A stretch of 64,000 nucleotides of DNA from Devosia soli (GTDB lineage Bacteria > Pseudomonadota > Alphaproteobacteria > Rhizobiales > Devosiaceae), in NCBI RefSeq assembly GCF_000970455.1, contig NZ_LAJG01000005.1, forward strand, positions 1 to 64,000, given 5' to 3'. Position 1 is the stretch's first letter; each line of letters starts with the position of its first letter. A program made the translations under genes and the position numbers. Below the pieces are notes generated by a model. It searched no databases. It was not told where the DNA came from and worked only from the letters and a program-made list of their open reading frames with translations. Below are positions 3,536 through 60,217 of this stretch, piece after piece.

Positions 3536-3567
3536 AACAGAAAGGGCGACCCGGAGGCCGCCCTTTC
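3536..3567 (-). terminator. Terminator at the end of the alpha operon
   Basis: Read on the minus strand, an 11-bp stem with one G-T pair (arms at 3541-3551 and 3557-3567) precedes a T-rich tract. It starts 20 bp beyond the rplQ stop codon and should end the long ribosomal-protein transcript. Confidence 0.7.
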
Positions 3568-3587
3568 GATAAACTGCTGAAGCGCTC

Positions 3588-38875: not shown

Positions 38876-39406
38876 TTAGCTCACCCCCGCTTTCTTTTCT
38901 TCGCTCCGCTGGTAGATCTGGACACCAAGAACGGCACAGCCCGCGATAAACATGAAGGTGAGGAATGTGGTCACTTCGCCCAGCTGCTGCAGTGTACCAA
39001 GTTGCCGCGTCCACATAAGCCAGCAGATCGTGACGCCGACCATGCCAAACATCACCGTAAAGACGATGGCGAAAAGCGGACGCCACAGCTTCGACAGGAT
39101 GCCTTCTTGGTTCGCGTCAAGCATAAGCACCTGATGATAGCTCACCATGGCATCTCGGTTCGCCTCGGCAATACGCGCCATGTCCTGGACGAATTGTTGT
39201 TCAACACGCTGAACGACGACTGCCGACGACGGATCGGCATCAATCTTCTCGGCGATCGCTTCGCCAGTCGCCTCGGTGCCGAGCGCTTCGGCCAAGCTAT
39301 CGATGGCGGCGCCGGCGATCTTTCCGCCAACACCGCCGATCTGCTGCTCGACGACAGATTTAAGAACGGGCGCGCCGGCCCGAATGAGAGCGTCAGTCCA
39401 GCTCAT
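38876..39406 (-). CDS. 3TM-type holin (gene-transfer-agent holin family)
   Basis: 176 residues from the ATG at 39406, which overlaps the endolysin stop by 4 bp. The N-terminal half is soluble and helical. SKLWRPLFAIVFTVMFGMVG begins the first clear membrane helix (about 108-132) and another spans 146-165. The WRPL motif before the first helix is typical of the 3TM holins named for gene-transfer release. It should open the inner membrane for the endolysin. Confidence 0.75.
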   Translation of the reverse strand: MSWTDALIRAGAPVLKSVVEQQIGGVGGKIAGAAIDSLAEALGTEATGEAIAEKIDADPSSAVVVQRVEQQFVQDMARIAEANRDAMVSYHQVLMLDANQEGILSKLWRPLFAIVFTVMFGMVGVTICWLMWTRQLGTLQQLGEVTTFLTFMFIAGCAVLGVQIYQRSEEKKAGVS

Positions 39407-40332: not shown

Positions 40333-40387
40333 GATCAACCTCGCAGACGTGCAGAAGCGCGCGGTCAAAGCCGCGTTCATTGGCCAT
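40319..40387 (-). pseudogene. Short ORF resembling the start of a GH108 muramidase (relic)
   Basis: AGGAGG stands five bases before the ATG at 40387, which opens a 22-codon frame ending with TAA inside the endolysin gene. The peptide contains GFDRALLHVCEVDHGIH. This resembles the N-terminal FxRALxHVLxxEGG pattern of GH108 muramidases. I read it as the leftover start of a replaced lysozyme gene, although it could also be a translated leader of the endolysin. Confidence 0.35.
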
Positions 40388-43647: not shown

Positions 43648-43671
43648 GACGTTCCTCGATCTTTGGAAATA

Positions 43672-45726: not shown

Positions 45727-46257
45727 CTAGACCCGCCATAAGGAAAGAGGTTTTGCCGCGAATAGGGCCCAGGTTGGGCGACCGTCCTTGGCCAGCCAGC
45801 GCACAAGCCATTTGTGGCCCTGCCAGATCGCGCCCCATTGTCTTGCCGAGTTAGTCGCCGAGCCGATGACCGCTACAGCACCAAATTCGGGCTCGTGCAG
45901 AGGCTTGAGACCAATGGATGCGGCACATGCCTGGACAACATTGGGAAGACCTCCAGCGGCCGCTAGAATCGCCCGGCATCCATCTTCGGTGTCATATTGC
46001 CCGCGAAGATGAGGTGCCGGATCCGAATGGCCGCAAGCAATCGCCCAATCGGCTAACAAAAGAGCGCAATCGGTCTGGCCCCAGACGAAGCCTACGGTCT
46101 GCTGATCAATGAATCCCTCGAACCGAGCCATCCGCTCGACAAGGTTAGGTTCGCCATGATGGCGACGGATCGCCTTTACCGCGCCGATGGATACGCACGG
46201 CTTCTCGCCCGCTGCCTCGATCAAGGCGCGGGTATCGTAACGGGTCCAGTTAGTCAT
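45727..46257 (-). CDS. Tail-associated cysteine-peptidase-like protein (DUF6950/NlpC-like)
   Basis: 176 residues containing FVWGQTDCALLLADWAIACG, the W-G-x-x-D-C-x-x-x-A-D pattern of DUF6950 and NlpC/P60-type phage proteins with a candidate nucleophile Cys. A downstream GAVAVIG segment and IWQGHKW would supply the His. In lambda the equivalent place is held by gpK-type cell-wall peptidases, so a role in wall penetration or tail-tip assembly is likely. Confidence 0.6.
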   Translation of the reverse strand: MTNWTRYDTRALIEAAGEKPCVSIGAVKAIRRHHGEPNLVERMARFEGFIDQQTVGFVWGQTDCALLLADWAIACGHSDPAPHLRGQYDTEDGCRAILAAAGGLPNVVQACAASIGLKPLHEPEFGAVAVIGSATNSARQWGAIWQGHKWLVRWLAKDGRPTWALFAAKPLSLWRV

Positions 46258-46826
46258 CAGCTAAACCGCGGCCAGACGATCTGTTTGTCGACCAGGCCGG
46301 GGATGCGCTCGGCGAAACGATCGGCTGGCGCCCCAGGGTTCAAAACCTTCGACCGAGCTCGTTGGTCCACATCCGACAGCACTGCACCACTGACCAGTGT
46401 GCGCAAGTCAAACCGATTGCGCACCTCGAGCACGAGGGTCGAAACCACTTGGTCGCCACTCACCGAATCGTCGCTGGGCATGTTGTCCACGAAGCCGGTG
46501 AACTTGACTTCTGGATCACCCACCGGCTGGTCCCACTCATCACAGGGCTGGATCAGCAGCTGCACTTTGGCGTCGATGACTTCACCTGCCTCCATATCCT
46601 CGTAGGCGAGATCGGAGACGGCTTGGTCAACGCCAGACATGGAAAGCATCAGCGTGGATGCCTCCCCGTTCATGGCGCTCTCGATCTGGTCGAGACCTTC
46701 AGTCAGCCGCGCACCCACCCAAATGTCCCCATTGGCGTCTAGGTATGGCCCAGCCCCGTCCCACATGCGAAAAGTCTTGGACGGGAACTCAATGCGGCAA
46801 AGAACGCGCAGGCTCTTGATTGCCAT
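46257..46826 (-). CDS. Distal tail / baseplate-hub-like protein
   Basis: 189 residues from the ATG at 46826, overlapping the upstream stop (ATGA). It is predominantly beta with acidic loops (DQIESAMNGEASTLMLSMSG, FTGFVDNMPSDDSV). It lies between the tape-measure-proximal protein and the peptidase-like gene, where phages encode distal tail and minor tail proteins. No named family can be assigned with confidence. Confidence 0.55.
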   Translation of the reverse strand: MAIKSLRVLCRIEFPSKTFRMWDGAGPYLDANGDIWVGARLTEGLDQIESAMNGEASTLMLSMSGVDQAVSDLAYEDMEAGEVIDAKVQLLIQPCDEWDQPVGDPEVKFTGFVDNMPSDDSVSGDQVVSTLVLEVRNRFDLRTLVSGAVLSDVDQRARSKVLNPGAPADRFAERIPGLVDKQIVWPRFS

Positions 46827-47539
46827 CACGCCACTCCGAGCGCCAAGTCGTTCCAATAATCCACCGCTTCGACAAATTCGACCGAAGCGACGTCGATCTC
46901 AGTGTTGTTCAGAGGCAGGTCCATGCCTCGATCGTCAGACAAATGGCAGAGGCAGGTGGGAGCATCGCATTCGAGCTGCGCCCCTGCAGGAATGGCCTGG
47001 CGAATGGCCGGAAACACCGGCACTTGGAACGTCGTCTCACTCGGCTGAGCCAGTACCCGTCCGGTCTGGTAGAGCGCGTCCTGATAGCTGAAGCGAATGC
47101 CCGCTGCGGCGGCGGCGTTGATAAGTCGAACGGTGATCACCGTTGCCCCCAGCGGGGCATAGGTGGCCATCTCGACATTGATTGATCCTTGGATGAACGC
47201 GGAGTCGTCATCGAAGCCGGTGTCATCGTCGAACGTCACTAACGCTTCCCGCTCGCGCTCGCCTGAAGGGTATGGAGCACTATCGAACGCCCAAACCGGA
47301 ACGGCCACTAGACCCGCCTTCCCGGCAAGGTCGGTGGCGATGGTATTCCAAACCCGCCGCATGGCGCGTGTCCGAACAGATACGTCCGTCATCGACACAC
47401 GCCAGAATCCTCGATCGGTGCGGATGTTGCGCTCGATCCCGCCCAGCGACTTGCCGCCGCCTCGCGAGAACGCGACCTGAGAAGCCATGGCACGGGCGGG
47501 AACAAGCAGCTTTGCTGGCCAGCGGATGATATTAGCCAA
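46826..47539 (-). CDS. Minor tail protein downstream of tape measure
   Basis: About 237 residues if it starts at the TTG at 47539, which overlaps the tape-measure stop by 8 bp. An internal ATG (MASQVAFSRGGGKSLGGIER) is an alternative. It includes a DDDTGFDDDSAF segment and a beta-rich C-terminal half. The context suggests a distal-tail component. The start is uncertain. Confidence 0.5.
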   Translation of the reverse strand: MANIIRWPAKLLVPARAMASQVAFSRGGGKSLGGIERNIRTDRGFWRVSMTDVSVRTRAMRRVWNTIATDLAGKAGLVAVPVWAFDSAPYPSGEREREALVTFDDDTGFDDDSAFIQGSINVEMATYAPLGATVITVRLINAAAAAGIRFSYQDALYQTGRVLAQPSETTFQVPVFPAIRQAIPAGAQLECDAPTCLCHLSDDRGMDLPLNNTEIDVASVEFVEAVDYWNDLALGVA

Positions 47540-49235
47540 GGCGGTAATCCGATCCTGCTTGCTGGACTTGGTAGCGAGACATGGCTGACGGTGCGTCTTT
47601 TGCTGCGCCAGCTCTCGCCGTGGCAACAATGGACGGCGCCGCCTGTGTGACGGTGGACTGCGATACGCTTTGGACGAACGGCAGAATGTTGCCGTTCCCA
47701 TCAGCAGCAACACCGACAGTGACGTGCACAGACTGCTGGTCTTGATTTGCGGCGGAGACGCCGAGCCGTCCATCAGGCCCGCGGCGCAGCGGCATGATGG
47801 CTTCCGGCCCAGCCTCACCCATCAGCCCTGCCCCGCTTGCCATGGGGAAAAGTGTCGGTCGAGAAACGATGCCGCCGTTGGCGAATGGCTGCACATGGCC
47901 ACCACTGAAGACTCCGCCATTCGCGAAGCCGCCGCCAAACAGTCCGGAGAGGATGCTGCCGAGGAAGCCGAAACCTCCCCCCATGCCGCCGAAGATGCTG
48001 GATGCCTGCTGGAGCGCGTACTGGGCCACATTGCCAAGGACATCCAGCATCACTTGGCCGAAGTCCTTGGCGCCGCTGATCAGATCCTTTAGCGCCCCGC
48101 CGATCGACTTGCCGAGATTGTTGGCGAACTCCTGAGCGCGTTCAGCAGCAGCCTTCAGACCATCGTTTGCTAGGTTCTTGACGTTGTCGTTTGCCGCCGA
48201 GGCGGCCCCGCCTAGCGCTTCCGTTTCCTTGCGCGTGCGGGCAATGTCCTGGGCTCGCTTGGACCAAGCGTCTCCAAGTCCGCCGAGATAGTCTGTCCCG
48301 AAAGCGTTCGCCCCTGCATCACCAATGTTCGAGCCGAGTTGGCCCGCTGCTCCAGCAAACGGATTATCGAAGCCACTGATCTGTGGCATTCCGAAGGTTG
48401 GGATGTTCAGTCCGAATTGCCCAAGTCCATCGTTGGCCGTCGTGATGAGGCTGTTGATGAGCTCGGTCGCGCGTTGAATTGACCACTCGATGCCTTTGAT
48501 GACGATGTTGGCGGTCTGGATCGTAACGTCGCCGATGGCCGCCGGCAGACCAGACCACAGTGCGCCTATGGCCTGCACGGCAAAAGAGAACGAGCCGATG
48601 ATCGTGTTTGCCATACCCTTGATGATGGGCGCGATCTGATCCCAGACCCACTGCAGCGCAGAGACGATGCCGCCCCAGACCGGAGCCAGGATCGAGCCGA
48701 TCATCTCGGCGAACATCTGCCAGCCGGCCAAAGCCACGTCGAAAAAGCTAACCTGCACGTCGGCGGTTTTGTTGAACTCGTAGGTGAGCCCGCCGATGGC
48801 GGCGGCAACGACGCCGATAACAGCGGCCAGCGGCCAGAATTTCGCAATCAGGCCTGTTGTCAGGTCCGAGATCGTGCGAAGTGCGGGAGCAAAACCGCCC
48901 TGGAATATCTGCGATCCCTGCTGAATGGCCACCATCGCGGGGTTCATGCCCGACGCAAGCGAAACGACCACGTCATTGAGCTGGTAGATCATCATCGTGC
49001 GTTGCTGCATCGAGGAACGGATGATGCCGTTCTGAGCCATCAGAGCAGCGTTGTGGGCTTGGGCTGCAGCAGTAGCCGCCTTCTGCCCTGCCGCTTCAGC
49101 CTGTGAGGCCCCAGCAAGCCGCTGGGCGGCCGCAGAAGCCTGCCCCGCCGCCCCTGTAAGCTGATGGAGCGAGACCGTGCCCTTCTCGACCTGCGAGGAG
49201 TCCACGGCCAAGCCGAGGCGAGCAACATCGGGCAT
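47532..49235 (-). CDS. Tail tape-measure protein
   Basis: 567 residues starting MPDVARLGLAVDSSQVEKGT, a start common to lambda-type tape measures. Long Ala/Gln-rich helices follow, then hydrophobic segments (LAAVIGVVAAAIGGL), glycine-rich stretches, and the C-terminal LMGEAGPEAIMPLRRGPDGR motif of this family. It sets tail length and is probably ejected during DNA entry. A short length implies a comparatively short tail. Confidence 0.88.
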   Translation of the reverse strand: MPDVARLGLAVDSSQVEKGTVSLHQLTGAAGQASAAAQRLAGASQAEAAGQKAATAAAQAHNAALMAQNGIIRSSMQQRTMMIYQLNDVVVSLASGMNPAMVAIQQGSQIFQGGFAPALRTISDLTTGLIAKFWPLAAVIGVVAAAIGGLTYEFNKTADVQVSFFDVALAGWQMFAEMIGSILAPVWGGIVSALQWVWDQIAPIIKGMANTIIGSFSFAVQAIGALWSGLPAAIGDVTIQTANIVIKGIEWSIQRATELINSLITTANDGLGQFGLNIPTFGMPQISGFDNPFAGAAGQLGSNIGDAGANAFGTDYLGGLGDAWSKRAQDIARTRKETEALGGAASAANDNVKNLANDGLKAAAERAQEFANNLGKSIGGALKDLISGAKDFGQVMLDVLGNVAQYALQQASSIFGGMGGGFGFLGSILSGLFGGGFANGGVFSGGHVQPFANGGIVSRPTLFPMASGAGLMGEAGPEAIMPLRRGPDGRLGVSAANQDQQSVHVTVGVAADGNGNILPFVQSVSQSTVTQAAPSIVATARAGAAKDAPSAMSRYQVQQAGSDYRLG

Positions 49236-49246
49236 AGGTCACCTCA

Positions 49247-49606
49247 TCAGAAAATGGCGTCAAAGAGTTCCGGCGTCATGGTGCGCTCGGAGATTGTGTT
49301 TGGATTGCCGCCTTCAGCTTGCTCGCGACCGGCGACTTCACGGCAGACAGCTAGATAGGCCGTGTCCATGGCACGGAGGGCTCGCCATTCCATTGTGGAG
49401 GGCGCAGAGCCGGTCAGGGACGCCCATTCCGCCATTTCCCGCCATGACAGCGCCTGTGGCCCGGAAAAGCCGTCCTGACGCCCCTGATGGAGTTCTATGA
49501 ACCAGTGCCAGAGGTATTCCTGCCCCCATGGTATGTCTGGCTCATAGCTCGGCGCGAGAACAGCCGAGCGAACGATCTGACAGAAATCGTCCGTCAGCTC
49601 TTGGTA
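49247..49606 (-). CDS. GT-type C-terminal extension of the tail chaperone, expressed by -1 frameshift
   Basis: This frame has no good start of its own. It overlaps the end of the G-like gene in the -1 frame and continues YQELTDDFCQIVRSAVLAPS for about 119 residues. After slippage on A-AAT-TTT (49612-49606) the fused product would be about 243 residues. In long-tailed phages the GT fusion loads tape measure and tube subunits. The arrangement just upstream of the tape-measure gene is the classical one. Confidence 0.7.
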   Translation of the reverse strand, partial: YQELTDDFCQIVRSAVLAPSYEPDIPWGQEYLWHWFIELHQGRQDGFSGPQALSWREMAEWASLTGSAPSTMEWRALRAMDTAYLAVCREVAGREQAEGGNPNTISERTMTPELFDAIF

Positions 49607-49977
49607 AAATTTGCGATCTTGCGCGCGGCCTCCACGACCTGCGCATAAAGCCATGTTTCTTTGGTTAGGATGGCCTTGATCGTTGCGGGATCGCTGCTGG
49701 GTACAGCGCCGTCATAGGTGTTGCCACCCCAATCCCAAGAGGCAACATAGGAAACGGCCTGATCGATTTCGTTTTGCTCAACTGTGTCTGCATCGATCAG
49801 CTTGCGCTTCTGCTGCTTGGCAAGGATGGCATCGGTCTGCTTTCGCACAACCGCCATTGCCGCTTCCGAGCCAGCCGAGCGCACCATGATCTTGATGCCC
49901 ATCGGCTCGCCGGTCGCAGGGTGCTCGACGTCGAGTTCGAACAGCTGCTCGGTTGAAACGAGGCCAGAGATTTCCAT
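49594..49977 (-). CDS. Tail assembly chaperone (G-like)
   Basis: 127 residues, between the tail tube genes and the tape measure. It begins MEISGLVSTEQLFELDVEHP and ends ARKIANFTKS just after the slippery site. The position, size and overlap with the next frame are those of lambda gpG. It should bind the tape-measure protein during tail assembly. Confidence 0.7.
   Translation of the reverse strand: MEISGLVSTEQLFELDVEHPATGEPMGIKIMVRSAGSEAAMAVVRKQTDAILAKQQKRKLIDADTVEQNEIDQAVSYVASWDWGGNTYDGAVPSSDPATIKAILTKETWLYAQVVEAARKIANFTKS
49606..49612 (-). promoter_or_regulatory. Programmed -1 frameshift slippery heptamer
   Basis: The minus strand reads GC-A-AAT-TTT-ACC in the G-like frame. A AAT TTT fits the X XXY YYZ rule exactly. 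It lies about 10 nt before the zero-frame TGA (49596-49594), and the -1 frame is open for 119 codons. Confidence 0.65.
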
Positions 49978-50172: not shown

Positions 50173-50904
50173 TTAGCCGAGCGGCGCGACGCGCACGGTA
50201 TTGCTGTTCACTTCGACAGTGCATTGCAGCTGCCGCACATTGTTTGGGCCGCCAAAGCCTTCAGTGGCGCCGGCAACGAGTCCCACGAAATATCGCTTTG
50301 ATGGGACGGGCACGGTCGATGCCGTATGCACGCCCGACTGTGTGCCGGTGGTGGTGATCGCCGCGCCGCCTGGCGTTGCTGAAACACTGAAAGCGCCTGT
50401 GGTGAGCCCAGCAGCTGCCACATAGTAGGTGGTGCCGGCAGTGAGGCCGGTGGGCAGGGCTCCAGTGGTCGTGAACTTGATCGGCGTACCGGCTGAAAGA
50501 CCGTGATTTGCCCAAGTGATGACGCCGGGCGCTGCGATCGTCATTGTCACGACCGACGACTTGACGATGGGGTCATCGTTTAGGTCGACGCGGAATGGGT
50601 AGTTGTAATCGGTGCGCTCAGCTGCCAGCATCGCAATCTGGCCGGCGTCCGTTGCGGAAACGGCAAAATTGTCCTGTCGAGAAGGCGCATTGCGCGTGCC
50701 CTTCTGCTTGACGTCACGGCCGCGATCAATAAGGGGCGTGGTGATCAGCGCAGCAGCATCGCCGAGCGATCCTGCTTCCATGTAATTCTTGACCTCAGTC
50801 CAGACGACCGAGGCAAAATCTGCTTCCGTGACATCGACGTCGGGAAGCTCCATGGCAGGGCCGATATAATACCGGCATCCGGCTACTGGATAGAGCGTGG
50901 CCAT
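50173..50904 (-). CDS. Major tail tube protein with inserted Ig-like module
   Basis: 243 residues. The N- and C-terminal parts (MATLYPVAGCRYYIGPAMEL; RQLQCTVEVNSNTVRVAPLG) look like a phage tail tube fold. A separate beta module lies roughly at 120-195 (GVITWANHGLSAGTPIKF, LTAGTTYYVAAAGLTTGAFS). It resembles surface-display domains added to tail and capsid proteins. The place upstream of the chaperones supports major tail protein. Confidence 0.7.
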   Translation of the reverse strand: MATLYPVAGCRYYIGPAMELPDVDVTEADFASVVWTEVKNYMEAGSLGDAAALITTPLIDRGRDVKQKGTRNAPSRQDNFAVSATDAGQIAMLAAERTDYNYPFRVDLNDDPIVKSSVVTMTIAAPGVITWANHGLSAGTPIKFTTTGALPTGLTAGTTYYVAAAGLTTGAFSVSATPGGAAITTTGTQSGVHTASTVPVPSKRYFVGLVAGATEGFGGPNNVRQLQCTVEVNSNTVRVAPLG

Positions 50905-50927
50905 GTGGCCCTCCTATGGTTGAATGA

Positions 50928-51353
50928 TCAGGCCCAACATTCGAAGGGCACTAGGACAGGCACGAGCACGCCAGGAGGCGTCGTCTCGACCAGCATTGAG
51001 CCGACTTCGGCGTCTGCTGTGATGCGGACGATGAGCCCGAGAGCGTGGCTAAGCTTCAAATCGGCATGGAAATGCGCAGCGACAGCGCCTGCGATGTCGG
51101 TGATGCGCGTGCCCTTGTTCAGCCCGTCGCGCACATTGACCTGCAGAAAGCCGATGCGCTGGTGTGGGCCATCGCTATCGATCAGCACGCGGTTGGCCGC
51201 ATTCGGAGCGAAGATCGCCTCGAGATAGCGATTGTCGTTTGGCTTGGTGAAATTTAGGTTCGGCCAAGCGACAGGGTGGGCCGGCGAGAGAACCAGTGTC
51301 GCGAGCCGCGCCAAAAGCGCCTCTTCGATAGCACCTTCCGTGGTCGTGGCCAT
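50928..51353 (-). CDS. Tail terminator / DUF4128-like protein
   Basis: 141 residues from the ATG at 51353 (MATTTEGAIEEALLARLATL). The conserved-looking core YLEAIFAPNAANRVLIDSDG, then RIGFLQVNVRDGLNKG, fits DUF4128-type proteins encoded before the tail tube, which cap the tail tube. It is followed by the tube gene at 23 bp. Confidence 0.6.
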   Translation of the reverse strand: MATTTEGAIEEALLARLATLVLSPAHPVAWPNLNFTKPNDNRYLEAIFAPNAANRVLIDSDGPHQRIGFLQVNVRDGLNKGTRITDIAGAVAAHFHADLKLSHALGLIVRITADAEVGSMLVETTPPGVLVPVLVPFECWA

Positions 51354-51372
51354 TGTGCGATACCTCTGGCCC

Positions 51373-51591
51373 ATGGCCGATGATTTAAGCAACGAACAGG
51401 TCTGGAACCGCATTCAGGTCGCCAGAGATGCCCTTGGGCAGGAGAAAGGCGCGTCCGTGGCCGGGAACACAGCCATTGAGGCTGCGCGCCGCTCCCTGCT
51501 CTTGCTGCAGATGGGCGTGCTGAAAGCGTCTGAGGACGCTAAAGACCGAGCCGAGCCCTCACCCGAGCCGCGACCTGATCCACGATCATAG
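51373..51591 (+). CDS. Small plus-strand hypothetical protein
   Basis: 72 residues, MADDLSNEQVWNRIQVARDA onward, helical and rich in Ala, Glu and Arg, ending in a Pro/Arg tail. It fills a 185-bp gap in the minus-strand array and overlaps the end of the convergent gp10-like gene by 53 bp. No strong ribosome site is visible, so expression is uncertain. Confidence 0.4.
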   Translation: MADDLSNEQVWNRIQVARDALGQEKGASVAGNTAIEAARRSLLLLQMGVLKASEDAKDRAEPSPEPRPDPRS

Positions 51592-51994
51592 GCCAGCGTT
51601 GACCTGCCATGGTTACCCATGGACGGCCCGCCTCACCATTCGCTGAATAGTGGACATACCCCGCATAATTGGCCGTGTAGCCAAGGTAGATCGTCTCACC
51701 GAGATCACTGCCGCTGATCACCAGCATGACATCGCCGAGATCAGCAGGAACCGGCACGCCGGGATTGTCCCTGGTCAGCAGCGGCATGGCCGTCTGCGAT
51801 GCCACCAGCGAAGCCCGTAGAAAGCCTGTTCGCTTGTAGCCGCTCGGCGCCGGTGGAGCGTCATAGACCGTCTGCACCAGCAGCAGATCCATTTGCTCGA
51901 CCAGTTCTTGCACGCTCTCCCGGAATACCACCTCGAGCGCGCCTTCGACCGACTGCGCCCAGTCTGCGACCTGCGCTTCGAAAGAGAGGGTCAT
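51539..51994 (-). CDS. Head-tail joining protein, HK97 gp10-like
   Basis: 151 residues. The order of features matches gp10-type tail completion proteins: an N-terminal helix (EGALEVVFRESVQELVEQMD), then YKRTGFLRASLVAS, then YAGYVHYSANGEAGRPWVTM. It overlaps the start of the downstream reading frame by 4 bp with the minor head gene. Confidence 0.7.
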   Translation of the reverse strand: MTLSFEAQVADWAQSVEGALEVVFRESVQELVEQMDLLLVQTVYDAPPAPSGYKRTGFLRASLVASQTAMPLLTRDNPGVPVPADLGDVMLVISGSDLGETIYLGYTANYAGYVHYSANGEAGRPWVTMAGQRWPMIVDQVAARVRARLGL

Positions 51995-53043
51995 GCCAAC
52001 TGCCGGCGACGGATCAGCGCGGCGGTGTAGTCGATCTTGTACGTCACTGGGCAGTTACACCCGACTGTGTGCCGAGCAGGAAGGCCGGGCGCATGCGGAT
52101 ACGGGATCAGCGTACCGTCAGGAGCCACAAAAGGCTGGTCGTATGGCACAGTTTGCCCCACCATGGCCTTGTGCTGCGACCGCGGATGCTCGCTGATGGT
52201 GCGCCCCCAGGTCTTTGTCACGTCGCGCGGATCGATCTTGCCGCTCTCGATGCCCTGGCGAATGCCCTCGTTCTTTGCCATGGCCAATGCGGCGCGCGTC
52301 TCGTTGAGCGCGATGACATCGGCGCGGAACTTCAGCTGCTTGTCATTTAGGCGGCCGACGATGCGATCGACATCCTGACGAAACAGCGCTTTTCCTTCGC
52401 TGATCGCTTTCGCCACCATCCGGTCGAACCGTTTGTCGCGCTGCTTGAGCTGCAGATAATCTCGCATGCCCTCTGGATCGCCAGAAATGAGCGAGGAGCG
52501 GGCTTTAGCCTGCGTCCGCTCCTGAGGCCCGCTAAGACCGATATAGCCGCCCTCGCGTTTCCCTGTGGCTCTATTGACCCTGCCGACTGCCTCTAGCGCC
52601 GTCTTGGTCGGATTGTCGCCACGTGCCAAGCCTTCGGTGAGCGCAATGCGGAGCAACTGCTTGGCCTGCTCTGTCTCGCGCGTCACGAGTTGCGCACTGA
52701 GATCGCGAAGCAGCGCCTCGGCGATCAGGTTGCGGACACCGAACGAGAGGGCGACGCGTGTGCCGGCTGGATCGCGCACGATGACATCTGCCGCCATGGC
52801 TATGCCGCCACGATTGAATGCATCCGCAATGGCGAGGTCGAGGCCGCCGAATGCTGCTCGATCGATGCCCAGAAGATCGATAGCCGCTTCGATGTTGCCG
52901 CGATCGATCTCAGCCACGATCCTCTTGAGCATGGCAGGTGTCACGCCGGCCTTGATGCGATCATAGGCTTCCAGGAACGCGGCGCGCACCTCCGGCGAGA
53001 ACTTATCGACGAGCTGATCGAACGGTGTCCGGTTGGAAGCCAT
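51991..53043 (-). CDS. Minor head morphogenesis protein (Mu gpF / SPP1 gp7-like)
   Basis: 350 residues. The C-terminal part contains EHPRSQHKAMVGQTVPYDQP followed by the GTLIPYPHAPG and HTVGCNCPVTY motifs, the classic Mu F-like ending. The N-terminal two thirds are helical. In phages this protein sits inside the head near the portal. Normally it is encoded between portal and capsid genes, but here it lies downstream of a connector-like gene and no portal or capsid gene is nearby. Confidence 0.75.
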   Translation of the reverse strand: MASNRTPFDQLVDKFSPEVRAAFLEAYDRIKAGVTPAMLKRIVAEIDRGNIEAAIDLLGIDRAAFGGLDLAIADAFNRGGIAMAADVIVRDPAGTRVALSFGVRNLIAEALLRDLSAQLVTRETEQAKQLLRIALTEGLARGDNPTKTALEAVGRVNRATGKREGGYIGLSGPQERTQAKARSSLISGDPEGMRDYLQLKQRDKRFDRMVAKAISEGKALFRQDVDRIVGRLNDKQLKFRADVIALNETRAALAMAKNEGIRQGIESGKIDPRDVTKTWGRTISEHPRSQHKAMVGQTVPYDQPFVAPDGTLIPYPHAPGLPARHTVGCNCPVTYKIDYTAALIRRRQLA

Positions 53044-53468
53044 CAGAGAGCAAGGTCCAGGTCATAGAGAACAGCGATTCCAGCCGGCGAGAGAGCCCGC
53101 ACGGCCTGTATTTCTTCCCAGGCATGTGTGGCATCGTCCGCCGCATCCGCGAACGTCAGCGCCTCGCCCAAGAGGATGGTATCATCATCTGTCGGGGCTA
53201 TGCCCGCAGCGCCGGAGATCGTCACCGTGCGTTTGGTCATGCCGATCAACGTGCCGTTTATGTCTCGCAGTTCCTTGTCGGACTGCAGGGCAATGACAGG
53301 GGTGTAGGTGATCGTTGGCTCGGTAGGAATCCATGGGGTCGATGGATCAGGCGTGCCGGGAACGACGCGGCGGATCGTGGCCGGATAGCCGTTGGGCTGG
53401 GACACGTCGCCGATAGAGGCGAGAGCGGCTTCGACTTCCTGAGCGACTTTCGACCAATCCTCGGCCAT
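53043..53468 (-). CDS. Head-completion-like phage protein
   Basis: 141 residues, mainly beta (GYPATIRRVVPGTPDPSTPW, MTKRTVTISGAAGIAPTDDD). It overlaps both neighbours by one base, in the classical TGATG arrangement. Position between a connector-like and a minor head gene suggests a head-closure component. The family is not certain. Confidence 0.55.
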   Translation of the reverse strand: MAEDWSKVAQEVEAALASIGDVSQPNGYPATIRRVVPGTPDPSTPWIPTEPTITYTPVIALQSDKELRDINGTLIGMTKRTVTISGAAGIAPTDDDTILLGEALTFADAADDATHAWEEIQAVRALSPAGIAVLYDLDLAL

Positions 53469-53929
53469 CAGATGTTCTCCGAGATCGGCCCGATGGAGCC
53501 AAAGAAAAAGCCCATGGCGTTGCGGTCAAGAATATAGGGCTCGAACAGCGCCTCGATCAGTGTGCTCACCGGCATAGCGGCATAGATGCCAGAGGCGTTT
53601 CCTGTGACCTGCCAGCGGATTTTGTCGACCTGCACAAGGCTCTTCTGCTCGCTTGCGGTGTAGGTCTTGCTGAAGAACCCGGGGGTCGTTAGCTCGATAT
53701 AGGCGGCGATGTAGGCCGCTTCAGTCGTCAAGGGCAGGTCTGCCTCATCTGGGGTGAAATCGACGCTGTAGCCCGCCGCCAAGAGGTTTGGCGCGTATCT
53801 CATCCGAACCATGTCTGACGCTCTGGTCAGGGCAGCAGTTGCAGCCTGATCCGTTGCTTCTGTCGGAGCTTGATCGCCTCGAACGCTGGCATACTGACGC
53901 CAGCCGTCTATCGTGCCGTATGTGGCCAT
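53468..53929 (-). CDS. Head-tail connector-like protein (gp6/DnaT-like)
   Basis: 153 residues beginning MATYGTIDGWRQYASVRGDQ, with helices around residues 30-50 and 70-85 and the ending GFFFGSIGPISENI. The form fits small connector proteins that follow the major capsid gene. It is the first gene of the leftward late block and has GAGG before the ATG. Directly upstream is a terminator instead of the expected capsid gene. Confidence 0.6.
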   Translation of the reverse strand: MATYGTIDGWRQYASVRGDQAPTEATDQAATAALTRASDMVRMRYAPNLLAAGYSVDFTPDEADLPLTTEAAYIAAYIELTTPGFFSKTYTASEQKSLVQVDKIRWQVTGNASGIYAAMPVSTLIEALFEPYILDRNAMGFFFGSIGPISENI

Positions 53930-53942
53930 GGTGGCGCCTCAT

Positions 53943-53970
53943 GAAAAAGCCCCGCGGATGCGAGGCTGTT
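53943..53970 (-). terminator. Terminator just upstream of the connector-like gene
   Basis: On the minus strand GCCTCGC pairs with GCGGGGC (7 bp including one G-T pair, ATCC loop) and is followed by TTTTTC. It ends about 14 bp before the connector gene ATG. It would stop minus-strand transcripts arriving from the integrase region. Confidence 0.65.
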
Positions 53971-54003
53971 AATCTTGATTGCCAGCAACGCTATGCCGGC
54001 GCT

Positions 54004-54077
54004 TGGCCTGATGTTCAAATGCGAACGCGCCGTGGCCCTGGCAGGCCACGACGCGCTCTAACCAACCGAACCTCAGG
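54004..54077 (-). other. Degenerate tRNA-like fold beside the integrase gene
   Basis: On the minus strand CCTGAGG (54077-54071) pairs with CATCAGG (54013-54007) at 6 of 7 positions and is followed by CCA. Inside are a D-loop-like GGTTGGTTAGAGCGC (54067-54053), a 7-bp hairpin CGTGGCC/GGCCACG (54050-54031) and a GTTC/GAAC arm. The T-arm and D-stem are not canonical, so it is not a functional tRNA. It may be an attachment-site remnant or a small RNA. Confidence 0.3.
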
Positions 54078-54085
54078 AGTTCAGG

Positions 54086-54952
54086 ATGGCTCAGGCTGTC
54101 ACATCATTTTTCCCGCGCGCCCGCAATGGGCAAACCTTCGAAGCAGCAGCGGCGAGCTATATTCGCCATGGCGGCTCTAATCGATTCCTCGACCGCGTGA
54201 TGCCGCACCTCGGCAGCATTCCCGTCGACGAGATTGTGCCATTCGACATCAAGAGCTTGGCGCAAACATTGCTGCCCGACCAAGGAGGAGCGACACGCAA
54301 TCGCCAGGTCATCACTCCGATCCGCGCCGTCCTTCTGCACGCCTATGAGCGCGGCTGGTGCGCGCCCATTCGCCTGCGACGCTTCAAAGAGGACCCGCCG
54401 GCAAAGAAAAGCCCTGCCTCGCCGATCTGGCTGCATCTGTTCGTGCGCCAGTGCGATCAAGACGGCGGGCTCGATCACCTTGCCGCCCTGGTCATGTTCA
54501 TGAGCCACACAGGCGCGCGAGTTACCGAATCCATCAATCTTCGCGTCGGCGATGTTGACCTAGCGGGTCGTCGCGCAATGTTGGTTCGGACGAAAACCGA
54601 CCGCCATTCAGAGCGCGCCCTCACCGATGCCCTGGCAAGGCGCATGGCACCGCTTCTACTGGGCAGAGACGGCGATGAGCGGGTTTTCCGCTATGTCTCC
54701 CGCTTCGGCGTTAATGACAGGATCGAGGCGGTGTGTCGCCGCGCAGGGATCGAATACAAGTCGTCCCATGCATGCGGCCGCCACTCGTTTGCCACGAACG
54801 CCATCGCCATGGGCGCAGACGTCAAGAGCACCATGGTCGCAGGCGGATGGAAAACGACGTCGATTTTTCTGAACACCTATGTGCACCGAAAGGACGCCGG
54901 CCGCCTGGTCGCCGATCGCTTCAATTCCTTTCAATATTCCACCGAGGTTTGA
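54086..54952 (+). CDS. Tyrosine recombinase (phage integrase)
   Basis: 288 residues. A core-binding domain spans about 15-105 and the catalytic domain follows with Arg145 in SHTGARVTESINLR, His228/Arg232 in SHACGRHSFAT, Trp255 in GGWKTTSIFLNTY (taking the place of the third-box His) and the nucleophile Tyr265. The AGGAG ribosome site is good. It catalyses site-specific integration and excision. It sits in the middle of the structural genes, on the opposite strand, 16 kb from the tRNA, which is unusual. Confidence 0.9.
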   Translation: MAQAVTSFFPRARNGQTFEAAAASYIRHGGSNRFLDRVMPHLGSIPVDEIVPFDIKSLAQTLLPDQGGATRNRQVITPIRAVLLHAYERGWCAPIRLRRFKEDPPAKKSPASPIWLHLFVRQCDQDGGLDHLAALVMFMSHTGARVTESINLRVGDVDLAGRRAMLVRTKTDRHSERALTDALARRMAPLLLGRDGDERVFRYVSRFGVNDRIEAVCRRAGIEYKSSHACGRHSFATNAIAMGADVKSTMVAGGWKTTSIFLNTYVHRKDAGRLVADRFNSFQYSTEV

Positions 54953-54959
54953 CGCTTAG

Positions 54960-55007
54960 GGTGTCGAGCGATGCTCGGCACCCCCTCCGTTGATGTGAGG
55001 GTGTGTG
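54960..55007. other. Hairpins between convergent integrase and esterase genes
   Basis: GTGTCGAGC-GAT-GCTCGGCAC forms a 9-bp stem with a 3-nt loop at 54961-54981, and a second CCTC/GAGG-type stem follows. There is no T-run on either strand, so termination would be weak or Rho-dependent. Confidence 0.4.
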
Positions 55008-55009
55008 GG

Positions 55010-56341
55010 TTAGGACGGGAACTCAGGGATCAGCGAAGTAGCACTCACACCCAGATTTGCGGCGAGCCATACTGTCGTCAACTGTGATGGATGGGTGAAG
55101 TCAACCGTTGAGGCACCACCAACCAGCGTGTCCAGATCGCTGCGCCATTTCCATGTGTCCACTGGATCACGCAGAACAGCATTGGCATCAATCACTGACG
55201 CGCAGCCCCACGTCGCCACAGCGCTGGTGCGCACCCGCGCGGCCCAGTCTACGATCATATCGGACTTGGCGTGCTTGGTTTGGACAGCCAGGGTGCTGGT
55301 AGAGTCTGCGATGGGAAACGGCGTTACCGCATGAACACGGATGCCGATGCCCTTGAGCTTGTTGACGAAGGCGCGGAACAGGACTTCGTATTGATCCACA
55401 GTGATCGTGCCGAAGTCATTCACCTCAAGCTGCACGATGGCATCGGTAAAGCCGAGGGACAACAAGGCGAAGCGTTGCGCTGCGTAGTTAGCCGCAAGAG
55501 CATTGGCGTTGTTTACACCCATCCACGTGCGCAGCTCGTCGCCCGGTATGGTAAAGGCGCTGAACGGTCGTTGCGATGCGATCCAACGCTCAATCCAACC
55601 GATATTCCCGTCATTGTCTCCAGTATCGCGACTGAGCAGCCCGCCACCTGAAACCTGACCGTAGGCAATGGAGTGGCCAATGATCGCCACGGACGAGCGC
55701 CGAATGCCGTCTGCTGTGCGGCCAAGAATTACAGCTGGGACAATACAAGCGCGGGCATTGCTGTCATTCGCCGGCCAGCCTGACTGCACCAGCGAAAGGT
55801 CGCTAGTGGATGCGTATAGGCGAGCGAACTCTTCGCCCCATGTCTTAGAGCGGGCGGTTTCTCGGCTCCCGGCCAAGGGGTTTGTTGTTGAACCTACAGC
55901 ATAGAACTGCAGGCCGATGGCCGTCCCGGCCGCGATATCAACTCCGATGGGATCGCATACGGAGAACTCGCCCGCAGGGATCGTCATGTTGAACTTGCCC
56001 TGCCGAGTAACGCGGCGGATGGCATTCACATCGTAAGCGTTGCCAGCAGCCGCGCCCCAGGCAGGGGCTAATCCGACATGGACACCGGAGAAGCCAGCAC
56101 TTTCCTGTTCGGCCAAAGCCCCATGCCCGCCCACATACACTGGAGCGATCTGGCTCGCGCCGTAGGGCAACACATGGCGACTGCGGCTCAAATAGGCCGG
56201 GAGAGCATCTGTGGTGATGTTCCGGTTGTAGTTGTAGCCAGCACGGCACCCAATCGGAAACATCGACTTGTCGGCGCTATCGCGTAGCGCACGCAGGGCG
56301 GCCAAATTGGCAGATGCACGGTTTGCGAGGTTATTTGCCAT
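55010..56341 (-). CDS. Tail-spike-like SGNH/GDSL esterase
   Basis: 443 residues. The first 220 are beta-rich and glycine-rich, like a particle-binding part. The SGNH fold begins with IIGHSIAYGQ (Ser235 in the nucleophile position), a LQLEVND-type segment in the middle (IVQLEVNDFG) and the Asp414-x-x-His417 pair in DFTHPSQ near the end. It would remove acyl groups from a surface glycan during adsorption. It follows the lyase-like gene at 5 bp. Confidence 0.65.
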   Translation of the reverse strand: MANNLANRASANLAALRALRDSADKSMFPIGCRAGYNYNRNITTDALPAYLSRSRHVLPYGASQIAPVYVGGHGALAEQESAGFSGVHVGLAPAWGAAAGNAYDVNAIRRVTRQGKFNMTIPAGEFSVCDPIGVDIAAGTAIGLQFYAVGSTTNPLAGSRETARSKTWGEEFARLYASTSDLSLVQSGWPANDSNARACIVPAVILGRTADGIRRSSVAIIGHSIAYGQVSGGGLLSRDTGDNDGNIGWIERWIASQRPFSAFTIPGDELRTWMGVNNANALAANYAAQRFALLSLGFTDAIVQLEVNDFGTITVDQYEVLFRAFVNKLKGIGIRVHAVTPFPIADSTSTLAVQTKHAKSDMIVDWAARVRTSAVATWGCASVIDANAVLRDPVDTWKWRSDLDTLVGGASTVDFTHPSQLTTVWLAANLGVSATSLIPEFPS

Positions 56342-56346
56342 GGCCC

Positions 56347-57843
56347 TTATGCCCTATATTCATAAGCTGTATCGCCAAAGGTGTAGGGCGAACCATTGAA
56401 GGTGAAGGTATTCGCATAGGAGTCGGGAACTGTGATTTCCGGGGTCCGATACCGAACAGCCAATGTTTCAGCCGCTGCCTTGCGGTAGATGCCGTATTTG
56501 AAATAGCTGGGGTTCTGATCGTTGTTCCCGATAGCGGTGGCCTGGTCATACTTGACGTCACCATCAAGTACGAACTTCAGGTACCCAGCCGAAGGGCCAT
56601 GCCGCAGGTCGATCGCGACATCATGGTAAACACCACGAGTAATTGGGGACGGAGAAGTCCAAGCCACGTTTATCGGCGCTGTGCCGTCTGATATGGCATT
56701 CGGGTCAGCAATAATGTTCAGTTCTAGTCGCTCATCGGGGCGCATATTGACCGCCAACCAGGGACGCTGGTGGCTTTCACCTGCATCTTCCGTCTGGTGT
56801 ATCTGGCCAAGGATAGCGAAGGCGCTCGTGAGCGGAGCGCCGGCCTCAACTAGGAACGACCAGCGCAACTGAACCAAGCTTCCGTCCACGGCGATAGGCG
56901 ACATCGAAGCAGGTATGGACAGTTCAGAACGTTCGTTGCCGTTGGTTACGTCTGCGCTCAGAGGCTGATCGCCCGAACGAACCTCAAACCGCTGTTCAGA
57001 GCGATTGTTTAGGTTTTGGAACGAGTAATCGTTGCCGCGCACGTAATGGCGCTCATATTGGCGCCAGCGCAGGTTCTCCAGATAGCGGCGTAGTTGGGCG
57101 GCCTTCCCGCCCGACAGCGGCTTAGTCACAAGAATGCAGAGTATCTTGCCGCGCCAAAATTCAGTTGGGGTTGATGCCGAACTCGCCCCAATGCGAGACC
57201 GTGTTGTTGCCGTTGCCGGGACCGCTGCACTTGGCGTGGACGCAATACCCTCAATCTCAGAATACATGTTCGCTCCGTCAAATATCGAGCGCACCACGTG
57301 ACAATCATTGAATTTGGTGTCGGTCTGGTAGTTCGTCAGTCCTGTGGTCCCGTTTCCGGCCAACGACTGGTAGCGATTAAGGCCCGATAGCTGGGCGCGG
57401 GCTAAACGCCTGGACGTAGACGACGCGTTACCATACATCATCAGGGTGCCGTTCACGGCGTCGGTCGTCGGCTTGTCCTGCTGCACAACTGCCCAGACTT
57501 CGCTTGGCGCCGAGCCAGATGGGAACGGCACCGACGACAGCAGAAGGCAATCGTCTACGCCGTCGAAATAGAGGCAGTCTAGCCCGTCAAAGCCGCCCGC
57601 CTTGAACGTTGGGCGGGATGCAGCCGTAGCTTGCGCCATGTCATAGCCGGCAATGACATCGCGGAAACTCGACACCGCGCCGCTGGAGGTTGTGATGGTC
57701 TCTGGGCGCCGCGCATCGAAGTAACCAACCAAATCTGTGCCCAGGCCTTTGACCGGCTCCCACCCCCCGCCCTTTGTTGGGGCGAGCGCTCCCAGCTTCA
57801 GCGTGCCGAGCTGGCGGATAGAGCCAAGGCCAAGCTGGCTCAT
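56347..57843 (-). CDS. Two-domain carbohydrate-binding spike: LamG-like plus polysaccharide-lyase-like
   Basis: 498 residues from the ATG at 57843 (ATGA overlap with the gene before). Residues about 30-240 look like a concanavalin/LamG jelly roll (GLDCLYFDGVDDCLLLSSVP, WAVVQQ, TEFWRGKILCILV). The C-terminal half shows the heparin-lyase-I-like pattern RSELSIP, YHDVAIDLRHG and PSYFKYGIYRKA. It may bind and cut a host polysaccharide. The catalytic residues are not certain from sequence. Confidence 0.6.
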   Translation of the reverse strand: MSQLGLGSIRQLGTLKLGALAPTKGGGWEPVKGLGTDLVGYFDARRPETITTSSGAVSSFRDVIAGYDMAQATAASRPTFKAGGFDGLDCLYFDGVDDCLLLSSVPFPSGSAPSEVWAVVQQDKPTTDAVNGTLMMYGNASSTSRRLARAQLSGLNRYQSLAGNGTTGLTNYQTDTKFNDCHVVRSIFDGANMYSEIEGIASTPSAAVPATATTRSRIGASSASTPTEFWRGKILCILVTKPLSGGKAAQLRRYLENLRWRQYERHYVRGNDYSFQNLNNRSEQRFEVRSGDQPLSADVTNGNERSELSIPASMSPIAVDGSLVQLRWSFLVEAGAPLTSAFAILGQIHQTEDAGESHQRPWLAVNMRPDERLELNIIADPNAISDGTAPINVAWTSPSPITRGVYHDVAIDLRHGPSAGYLKFVLDGDVKYDQATAIGNNDQNPSYFKYGIYRKAAAETLAVRYRTPEITVPDSYANTFTFNGSPYTFGDTAYEYRA

Positions 57844-58145
57844 GCCGTAACCCACGAAATAGTGGCCTTGCTCGGGATGAAGATGTCGATCGGCGTATCA
57901 GCCGCGAGATAGCCGCGAGGATTGGTATTGGCCGCCTTATTGACCGCATAGAAGCCCGCCTCGGACGAATGAAGGTGCGCCACGAGCGTTCCGTTCACAG
58001 CATTGCCGCCGGGGCCGGGTTCAGTCTGCTGGCCATTCGTGATGGTCTGCGACTGGACAGGCTCGCCCTTGAGCGCACTGGTCACGCGTTCATCGCCAGG
58101 ACCAACGGCGTAACTGAATTCAACATGGAGACCGGAAAGGGCCAT
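57840..58145 (-). CDS. Small phage protein between terL and spike genes
   Basis: 101 residues, MALSGLHVEFSYAVGPGDER onward, beta-rich with a hydrophilic middle. It lies 15 bp after terL, where a portal gene would normally be found, but it is far too short for a portal. It overlaps the spike gene (ATGA), so it may be a spike-attachment or assembly protein. No family recognised. Confidence 0.5.
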   Translation of the reverse strand: MALSGLHVEFSYAVGPGDERVTSALKGEPVQSQTITNGQQTEPGPGGNAVNGTLVAHLHSSEAGFYAVNKAANTNPRGYLAADTPIDIFIPSKATISWVTA

Positions 58146-58160
58146 CTGGATTTCCTTCTG

Positions 58161-59735
58161 CTACGCCCTGCGGCGTGACTTCATACTGGCATGCCCAAGA
58201 TTGACCTTGGGACCACCGTTGCGACTGCGGCTGCTTGCCGTTCGAATGCGGGCGCTCACAGAGCTCTCGCCGTATGACCAGGCATTGATCACGGCGTCGC
58301 CCTTGTCCGGCGATCGACCGAGGCGTTTCTTGATGTCGGTCTTTTCCTCGATGAGGATGCCCCGCGGCGTGAGCTTCCATGTCACGGCCGCAAGATCTGC
58401 AGCCAATTCAGGATCTGGTGGCAAGGCAACCGGCTCGCCCAAATTAGGCTCCAGTGCCTCGCGAAACTTCCAGTGAACCTCTGCCCGCTTGTTGGCGAAC
58501 TTGAGCTTGCCGTCTCGCGTCCGCTTGCTCGATTTCTCAGCGCCATTGTGCGCGTGAAGCGTCAGGCCTTGGACGTTGTTCTTCAGGTGCGAATAGACGC
58601 CGGATCCATAGCCGCCGCCCATATCGATGACGATCTCTGCACCGTCTCGCATTGTGGCGACAACCTTGGCAGCAAGATCGAGCGGATCGACCTTGCCCTT
58701 CAGCGTCTCCGACTTAACCTCGTCGTACCAGTGGCCATACCGAGCGGCCAATGTGTTCGCATCGCCGCCGCCAAGCGCCACGTCATTGGAGAGCACCGAC
58801 ATGCCGACGCCTTCTGGCCGAGTTGGAGTCCATCGCGCCTGCGCGGCCTTGATCCATTCGGTTGGAAAGGCCTGAAACTCGTTGTCCTTGACCTCGGCAT
58901 CGAAGCGCCCGTCGCGAAGACGGATGCGAAGCTCTTCCGGCATGGCCTCGAGCACCGAAGCATAGCCCGTTGCCATCAGGTCCGGATTGTCTTCCAGCTT
59001 GGCCGGAATAAACGTCCGCGATCGCGGCTGCACCATGCGGCCATTGACTTCGACTTGATCTGGCCCTTCACACTCGACATCTTCGCCGTTGATCGTCGTG
59101 AACCAGCGAAGCTCGCCGGGCTTTGCCGGGTTCGGATGCTTTGGATCGAGCCAAGGCGCCCAATACTTGACCACCCAATAGCCTTCCGGCGTAACCGGCG
59201 GGTTGCCGGTTGCGATAACCCGGCTGCGCTGCCCCGGCGTTGTTGAGCGGTTCCAACCGATCAGGAAGCGGTACATCGCCTCGCTGAAGTGGGTGATCTC
59301 GTCAAAGCCCTTCAGCGCATGTGGGCGACCCTGATACTTCTCGACGTCGCTCTCGTGCGGGACTGAGCCGAACTCAAGGATGTTGCCGTTCGGCAGGCGC
59401 CAGAGCTTGTCCTGCGAGTTATATCCCTGCCGGCCACCGATCAGCCCGGCAACCTCGTCCTCAAGCCCCTTGATCTGCGGATACTCGCGGCGGAAAATGA
59501 TCGAGCGATCGAAGTCATCGACCGCAGTGCCGCAGAGAAGCGCCGACTTGCCGCCGCCCGCCGAGCCACCGAAGAACGTTTCATCCGCCAGGCTTTGCAG
59601 GCAGTCCGTTTGCGGGCCGGGATTTGGGATGAAGTAGCGGCCCTTTGTAGCCTCTATCGCATCCTTCTTGATTTGCTCCTGTGTTTCCTTTGGCAGCGCT
59701 TCGAAGCGGGCCAGGATGTCGTCAAGCAGACCCAT
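58161..59735 (-). CDS. Terminase large subunit
   Basis: 524 residues. The ATPase has Walker A GGSAGGGKS at residues 56-64 and Walker B with FDEITHF (144-150, Asp145/Glu146). The C-terminal nuclease domain shows DGAEIVIDMGGGYGSGVYSH and the closing DKGDAVINAW. It packages DNA into heads, working with terS and a portal. The portal is not found in the window. Its start overlaps the terS stop by one base (TAATG). Confidence 0.93.
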   Translation of the reverse strand: MGLLDDILARFEALPKETQEQIKKDAIEATKGRYFIPNPGPQTDCLQSLADETFFGGSAGGGKSALLCGTAVDDFDRSIIFRREYPQIKGLEDEVAGLIGGRQGYNSQDKLWRLPNGNILEFGSVPHESDVEKYQGRPHALKGFDEITHFSEAMYRFLIGWNRSTTPGQRSRVIATGNPPVTPEGYWVVKYWAPWLDPKHPNPAKPGELRWFTTINGEDVECEGPDQVEVNGRMVQPRSRTFIPAKLEDNPDLMATGYASVLEAMPEELRIRLRDGRFDAEVKDNEFQAFPTEWIKAAQARWTPTRPEGVGMSVLSNDVALGGGDANTLAARYGHWYDEVKSETLKGKVDPLDLAAKVVATMRDGAEIVIDMGGGYGSGVYSHLKNNVQGLTLHAHNGAEKSSKRTRDGKLKFANKRAEVHWKFREALEPNLGEPVALPPDPELAADLAAVTWKLTPRGILIEEKTDIKKRLGRSPDKGDAVINAWSYGESSVSARIRTASSRSRNGGPKVNLGHASMKSRRRA

Positions 59736-60217
59736 TATTTCCCGCCGGACAGGGCGAAGGCAATCTTTCGAGCCAAGTCATAGCTACCCAGATCTTCTAT
59801 CTGCACCGGGCCTTCACCATCCGCGCCGGTCAGTTGCGTCTTCTCGCCATACTTCTTCGGCGCCAGCTTGCCGGCCATCCACTTCCGCGCCTCGACGCGA
59901 AGCTGCGAGCGGCGCAATGCTTCACCATTCTCGCGCCAGCCAATATTCTCGCCGTCGCTGTTGGTGCGCTCTATCCAATCGTTCGAGCCATCGTCGGCAA
60001 TTTCGAGGATGTCATCGAAGATCGCATCCGCCTGCGCCGTTCGAGCGCGCGCGTATTGGTCCGAAAAGCCAGCGCTCTCACCCAACCATTTGAACACCGA
60101 CGATCGCGCTGGCATGCCGTCTTCGGAACAAATCGTGCGCAGACTCTCGCCATCTGCCAGGCGTTCACAGATCTTGTCGGCAAGCTCTTGCGTGAAGATC
60201 GTTGGACGACCAGTCAT
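59735..60217 (-). CDS. Terminase small subunit
   Basis: 160 residues. The N-terminal helix-turn-helix (LADGESLRTICSEDGMPARS, then SVFKWLGESAGFSDQYARAR) is the DNA-recognition part, and WMAGKLAPKKYGEKTQL is typical of this terminase family. It should recognise the packaging site and load terL. Confidence 0.85.
   Translation of the reverse strand: MTGRPTIFTQELADKICERLADGESLRTICSEDGMPARSSVFKWLGESAGFSDQYARARTAQADAIFDDILEIADDGSNDWIERTNSDGENIGWRENGEALRRSQLRVEARKWMAGKLAPKKYGEKTQLTGADGEGPVQIEDLGSYDLARKIAFALSGGK

Follow-up and report, generated by a model that had tools for sequence, protein, structure and literature searches.

The window analysed here comprises bases 1–64000 of a 677-kb contig (NZ_LAJG01000005.1) from the Devosia soli draft genome (48 contigs, 4.14 Mb), and the element in question is a prophage of ~43 kb, which spans about 37.7 to 80.6 kb of that contig. 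Its late genes are on the minus strand and are transcribed leftward, in the order terminase small subunit (TerS), terminase large subunit (TerL), three genes for proteins of 101, 502 and 443 residues, int2 (on the plus strand), head-tail adaptor (Ad1), head closure, head-morphogenesis protein, neck, tail terminator and major tail protein; thereafter come tail chaperones, tape measure, distal tail, tip, spike and endolysin. The original prediction for this locus was that the capsid cassette is missing between TerL and the connector-like gene, i.e., Ad1. The features in and around this gap are as follows:

59735..60217, minus strand: TerS (Sf6_terminase, 1.2e-45; phrog_1482, 3.8e-48)
58161..59735, minus strand: TerL of podovirus type (phrog_979, 1.3e-49), the last packaging gene ahead of the gap
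57840..58145, minus strand: 101-residue protein, starting 16 bp past TerL, with no family above threshold
56347..57855, minus strand: spike-like protein of 502 residues with a polysaccharide lyase domain (Pfam Polysacc_lyase PF14099, 7.1e-15, residues 287–461)
55010..56341, minus strand: probable SGNH/GDSL-type spike enzyme of 443 residues (motifs read by eye; no database match)
54086..54952, plus strand: int2, a tyrosine recombinase that appears to be accessory, divergent from Ad1 and reading against the late operon (antisense)
54017..54088, plus strand: structured RNA leader of int2, 72 nucleotides (model R1)
53468..53929, minus strand: Ad1 (phrog_477, 3.8e-8; 62% to the G047 prophage), with which the kept tail block opens
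53043..53468, minus strand: head closure Hc1 (phrog_161, 1e-8)
51991..53043, minus strand: minor head or head-morphogenesis protein of 350 residues with a Mu gpF-like C-terminus (phrog_3517, 1.8e-78; 40% to phiLM21)

No portal, protease or major capsid protein was read among 40 prophage open reading frames (ORFs) scanned against PHROGs, which were a subset of all its ORFs. Similarly, when 38 head and late reference proteins were compared with the DNA of 37.0–81.5 kb by tblastn, the best match had E = 0.015, while the same set matched six relatives, used as controls, down to E = 0. These proteins came from phiLM21, Pkon1, AP1, Nsp-JY10, five related prophages, a podovirus-like contig and two further clusters from the window's own genome; some were named by position only. 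Portal and capsid genes, which the original prediction had proposed to look for immediately to the right of the window, were absent from 64.0–80.6 kb, which holds replication, recombination and repressor genes instead, and then an integrase and tRNA-Tyr. The 350-residue head-morphogenesis protein might be mistaken for a portal or protease, given its matches to two 'portal' PHROGs (best 1.3e-15, positions 589–711 of 717) and to a 'protease' PHROG (8.7e-5); these fell on a region where Pfam Phage_Mu_F is sub-threshold, and were read as a MuF domain. PHROGs named 'virion structural protein' were matched by the 502-residue ORF (1.2e-8), the 101-residue ORF (E = 0.027) and the exonuclease (3e-9). 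A very divergent capsid fold is conceivable in the 443-residue ORF. A search of the genome itself with phrog_146 (portal) produced no match, as was also true of its controls, and a scan of the Genome_contigs set with the head-morphogenesis protein produced no relative. Part of the head side is kept, namely the genes for adaptor and closure, for the neck and for the minor head protein. At the sensitivity of these searches, the locus is an integrated phage gene set without essential virion genes.

The occupant of this slot was established from relatives of either side, in agreement with the view that portal and capsid genes normally lie here. On the terminase side, 19 foreign loci carried a TerL relative, some being near-copies of each other and one a 499-base fragment; in all 18 with downstream DNA, a portal gene followed within about 0.7 kb. 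They included nine viral contigs (L058–L065 and L074), where TerL was 76.5–79.8% identical over 520–521 residues, and where the portal was the next gene in each case. On the tail side, a homologue of the head-morphogenesis protein was found in 7 of 200 other genomes, of which 5 were readable (the contig of L029 was too short and the match in L025 too distant to be used). Portal (phrog_146 or phrog_145) and capsid genes were present upstream in 5/5 (L028 and L030–L033). In L030, L031 and L032 the capsid belonged to a family named 'major head protein' (phrog_247 or phrog_29), and in L028 and L033 to one named 'virion structural protein' (phrog_771). In L028, the G047 prophage from the same genus, the genes that come after TerL (2450–4009) encode a portal, a gp68-type protein (of unknown function in PHROGs), a decoration and a capsid protein and extend up to 8573, and Ad1 starts at 9028, such that portal and capsid lie precisely in the interval from TerL to Ad1.

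Comparison of these relatives showed that the two sides of the prophage are different phage types, both normally with a cassette in the slot. The window TerL had no match in L028, matching instead the contigs that are called podovirus-like here, a label suggested by their relation to BPP-1 (40%) and by their late genes. Conversely, Ad1 (62%), the tail terminator (72%) and a tail chaperone (84%) matched L028 and had no match in the podovirus-like TerL contigs. One of the latter, L059, has the same TerL type and also encodes a helicase and a methylase that were 71–73% identical to the genes at 66144–68716 of the contig, i.e., on the early side of the prophage. As different lineages lie on the two sides and neither cassette is present, recombination between two phage types appears to have left neither. 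A contig that wrongly joins two loci would create the same appearance, and the assembly is a 48-contig draft; an identical IMG/VR record of 42,801 bp, corresponding by arithmetic to window position 37749 through contig position 80549, probably derives from the same assembly. However, the genes flanking each junction are complete and have operon-like spacing, and four proteins tested occurred once each in the genome, which makes an assembly artefact barely credible.

A second example of the headless layout did not turn up in the 200 other genomes, phage records or viral contigs. As the spike genes are without relatives elsewhere, the layout is a single observation. No relative of the 443-residue gene was found in the 200 other genomes, nor of either spike gene among 50,697 phage records; in viral contigs, peptide patterns from both recovered the window's own record and no other, and neither protein matched a PDB sequence. 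By eye, the 443-residue sequence contained motifs resembling an SGNH hydrolase (GHS, ND and DxxH), and its single-sequence AlphaFold model was unusable (pLDDT 33). The 101-residue protein had one distant relative (29% identical), a 106-residue gene that adjoins a prohead protease in G020, a different genome from this genus. The surrounding element (L106, G020:C1:790000–809500) comprised this homologue, the prohead protease, a tape measure and a spike. Of ten ORFs scanned there, none was a terminase or portal, and the protease was the only one in the PHROGs head category, some of its matches being named 'major head protein'; this element is possibly another headless remnant.

The plus-strand gene in the gap, int2, contains the catalytic domain of a tyrosine recombinase (Phage_integrase PF00589, 4.5e-18, 66 bits against a cut-off of 27.1; phrog_1, 5.3e-24). 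The original prediction treated this gene as the integrase, but int2 is not the main integrase of the prophage, which is located at its right end:

79446–80549 of the contig: main integrase (phrog_1, 2e-35, PHROGs)
80615–80699 of the contig: tRNA-Tyr, adjoining the main integrase at the right end of the prophage

Relatives of int2 at 52–61% identity were found in 8 foreign viral contigs. In L014 the relative is divergent from a head-tail adaptor gene, the same as in the window; in G206 it lies between the endolysin and a tail gene; and in G210 and the phage Nsp-JY10 it adjoins a second integrase. Paired tyrosine recombinase genes, one being int2-type, were observed at L078 (Nsp-JY10; 39244–40326 and 1–876), G210 (43637–45603) and L016 (9854–12621, the second recombinase being judged by eye). 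Hence int2 looks like an accessory gene, and it is probably mobile.

The two blocks of different lineages might also be the remnants of two tandem prophages that were fused by deletions, with int2 and the adjoining intergenic stretch representing an old prophage end. In favour of that explanation, int2 relatives were ≤2.4 kb from the record end in 8/8 foreign contigs (two of which are only 5–8 kb long) and in Nsp-JY10; the second integrase beside the int2 relative in Nsp-JY10 and G210 is also consistent with it. However, at least two deletions would be required, virus record ends can be arbitrary, and no att-like repeat was found, while the int2 leader, the adaptor-divergent position in L014 and the endolysin/tail position in G206 fit an accessory gene of a late operon. 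Fusion of tandem prophages was considered unlikely on these grounds. With regard to the ends, the 80 kb leftward of the tRNA-Tyr end contained no repeat of it that would mark the left attachment site (attL), although the att core may be short or may lie elsewhere; among repeat pairs for either integrase, none was convincing. A tRNA-Gly was present ~200 bases from tRNA-Tyr in 11/11 loci scanned from relatives and was not found beside tRNA-Tyr here (contig 80615–80900); because of this absence, the chromosome to the right of the prophage may be rearranged also.

The most interesting feature of the interval is the 72-nucleotide leader that precedes int2 (54017–54088), whose structure is kept ahead of other int2-type genes. 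It consists of a hairpin (P1), a conserved CUAACCA, a second hairpin (P2) at the Shine-Dalgarno sequence, and a start codon followed by GCT; in most instances P2 carries the Shine-Dalgarno sequence in its loop or 3' arm. A fixed 17-base pattern covering the 3' arm of P1 identified 46 stretches in viral contigs, and those with ATG-GCT or GTG-GCT within the next 70 bases were kept, which left 24 with an ORF beginning with these codons directly behind. Five of these ORFs were recombinases (the window's own included) and 19 were HNH-like by translation, Pfam HNH_3 being found in 4/4 of the HNH-like proteins scanned. Among the other 22 stretches, several look like tRNA genes, and one (L123) looks like the leader without such an ORF. 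A covariance model (R1) was built from 23 of the 24 stretches, L125 being dropped as a copy of L121; the window leader scored 70.4 bits against it (E = 2.1e-23), being itself among the 23. R1 matched diverged instances both in other genomes and in viral contigs, one of the latter being podovirus-like; the genes that follow these instances encode recombinases, HNH-like proteins and three small proteins of unknown nature.

In total, 35 instances were assembled, 23 by pattern and 12 by model, standing ahead of HNH endonucleases, other recombinases and small genes. Of the 12, four were previously unseen (L091:7460–7532, two in L127 and one in L124), another (L013) was known through its int2 protein, and seven (L167–L172 and L175) were picked after their ORFs had been seen; L165, a copy of L151, was kept out of the alignment. 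Contig L127 had three copies of the leader. The second codon was GCT in 35/35 instances, although 23 had been selected for GCT and seven more were chosen after GCT was seen. Unbiased figures were 4/4 for the unseen model matches in viral contigs, 7/7 for the best foreign genome matches and 1/7 for the next seven. The genome matches came from a search of 201 genomes with R1, in which 27 (the window's own included) had a match; 14 foreign matches were read, and the 7 best by E-value look real.

Covariation showed that the leader structure is conserved. In the alignment fitted to the model (36 rows, one of which is a short antisense match), 94.5% of cells pair, and changes on both sides were observed in 8 of 12 pairs and 42 cells, a result as high in 0/500 shuffles; the score was 0.302, compared with ≤0.077 for slid controls. 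The signal was weaker in an unfitted MAFFT alignment, with 13 such cells (0/500 shuffles as high) and 4 such pairs (43/500); further pair types fell below the shuffles, and one slid version also reached 4 pairs. Compensatory changes, as expected for a structured cis-acting leader, are thus found in the proposed helices. A DNA core site or tRNA fragment, as suggested by an inverted repeat and a tRNA-like string, was set aside because of these changes and a near-constant distance to the start codon. Rfam 15 had no convincing match for the six stretches searched: the best match to the window stretch reached 19 bits (E = 0.52), where the gathering score is 37, and five other leader loci had nothing at E = 0.1. 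Directly upstream of the leader, TA[CTG]AAA was present in 21/35 instances, 14 of these with a TTGACA-like hexamer at 16–19 nucleotides; none was seen in the window.

These observations make it reasonably likely that the leader is an undescribed RNA class, serving as a portable expression signal for mobile genes of phages: it would start at P1, gate the ribosome binding site in P2, serve unrelated enzymes and often stand behind a promoter-like string. Translational control, with P2 presenting or hiding the ribosome binding site, is suggested by where the Shine-Dalgarno sequence falls. In the boldest form of this proposal, int2 and its leader would be mobile together, would land beside head-tail genes and, most speculatively, might help to swap or lose capsid cassettes.

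The remaining late genes of the prophage are as follows:

50173..51994, minus strand: neck, tail terminator and major tail protein genes (phrog_169, phrog_179 and phrog_158)
42427..49977, minus strand: tail chaperone, tape measure, distal tail, tip and spike genes (phrog_313, 3817, 8892, 12948, 2048 and 5616)
39403..40380, minus strand: endolysin (phrog_7, 8.5e-39)

The spike at 42427–43647 matched no PHROG other than phrog_13144, whose function is unknown. Window positions 40447–42474 (plus strand), which separate the spike from the endolysin and run opposite to both, encode what appeared by eye to be an acyltransferase-like membrane protein, a candidate surface-modifying cargo; a resembling gene sits late in the podovirus-like contig G204. 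As originally supposed, the tail, spike and lysis genes are open and look complete, and to these must be added the minor head, adaptor, closure and neck genes. Together with an equally complete-looking repressor gene, the presence of tail and lysis genes is what would be expected if the locus were a tail-only bacteriocin similar to F-type tailocins, retaining terminase genes as relics. However, F-type tailocins are not known to have head-side, packaging, replication or integration genes. Here, the adaptor, closure, minor head and neck genes, the terminase, Erf-like, exonuclease and helicase genes, and two recombinases are all kept, and no second headless example was found. Of this part of the original prediction, then, it stands that tails may be made as a by-product of the prophage, whereas a dedicated bacteriocin locus is improbable.

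Two other HK97-type capsid genes occur in the same genome (C37:1582–2439 and C44:332146–332994), one within a complete-looking prophage and the other within a cluster that may resemble a gene transfer agent. Given these genes, a helper is conceivable, if unsupported, and the element could be satellite-like, with its own terminase and tail and with heads borrowed from another resident phage. Sharing of capsids between prophages has been described for AH14a and AH14b (PMC4936722). However, nothing ties this terminase or connector to the other capsids, and, while P4 is described as lacking capsid, tail and lysis genes, this element keeps tail and lysis genes and is of full-phage size. The suggestion of a head-borrowing satellite, having gained nothing beyond the two capsid genes, was regarded as very improbable.

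Since its two sides belong to different phage types, a defective mosaic prophage that kept neither capsid cassette, with int2 as an accessory, probably mobile gene behind a folded leader, was the likeliest interpretation of the locus, and we hold it with fair confidence. This supports the suggestion of a deletion and replacement in a defective prophage, with which the failure to find an attL repeat is compatible. The right part (early genes, fibres, TerS and TerL) would have come from a podovirus-like lineage and the left part (Ad1, closure, minor head protein, tail and lysis) from a siphovirus lineage similar to phiLM21. Recombination would have joined these parts with the loss of both capsid cassettes, and the gap now holds the 101-residue gene, two spike-type genes and the accessory int2, whose leader is the same as that used by free-standing HNH endonucleases in other phages. 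Upon induction, the prophage would be predicted to replicate, to lyse its host and perhaps to release headless tails, but not to form heads by its own means.

Several observations weigh against this interpretation. The kept ORFs are open, and TerS, TerL and the 101-residue, lyase and 443-residue genes are packed as tightly as in a working operon. The ratio of nonsynonymous to synonymous change (pN/pS) against relatives was 0.17–0.66 in eight comparisons, such that there is no clear sign of decay. The ratio mostly reflects the time preceding the loss, however, and the synonymous sites are almost saturated. The two other capsid genes of the genome must be counted here also. As for the accessory status of int2, the proximity of int2-type genes to record ends, in all eight foreign contigs and Nsp-JY10, is as might be expected of a phage's own integrase, and neither a promoter scan nor a string search found a promoter-like site before int2 in the window.

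As a headless prophage, the locus illustrates how modules of two morphotypes can meet and lose a cassette, and it advises caution, in that an integrase in the middle of an operon need not be the prophage's own. The leader matters more than the headless prophage. If real, it would point to a form of translational control that selfish genes of many phages have in common, it would provide a search model by which accessory endonucleases and recombinases are found through their leader and not their protein family, and it would make the silence or activity of such genes inside late operons testable.

Among known systems, the Sinorhizobium phage phiLM21 and the G047 prophage resemble the window in the tail side, where the genes between adaptor and tip, both included, are similarly arranged. 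They differ in that portal, a phrog_760 protein (probably the protease, by its position), decoration and capsid genes lie between TerL and Ad1, and in that their TerL is not matched by that of the window. The podovirus-like contigs (L058–L066, L073 and L074, of the BPP-1/Acidovorax AP1 TerL group) share the TerL type with the window (76.5–79.8% identity over full length and up to 85% over part), but have a portal gene after TerL where the window has none. Cryptic ('grounded') prophages have likewise lost essential virion genes and kept others; in the window, nothing but the capsid cassette is lost, and this at the junction of two lineages. For the int2 leader, the nearest precedent concerns the homing endonucleases T4 I-TevI and Aeh1 mobE, where a hairpin is situated at the ribosome binding site of the mobile gene (PMC3014915). 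Unlike the T4-type arrangement, the int2 leader has two hairpins, CUAACCA and a GCT second codon, and these are common to HNH endonucleases, tyrosine recombinases and small genes.

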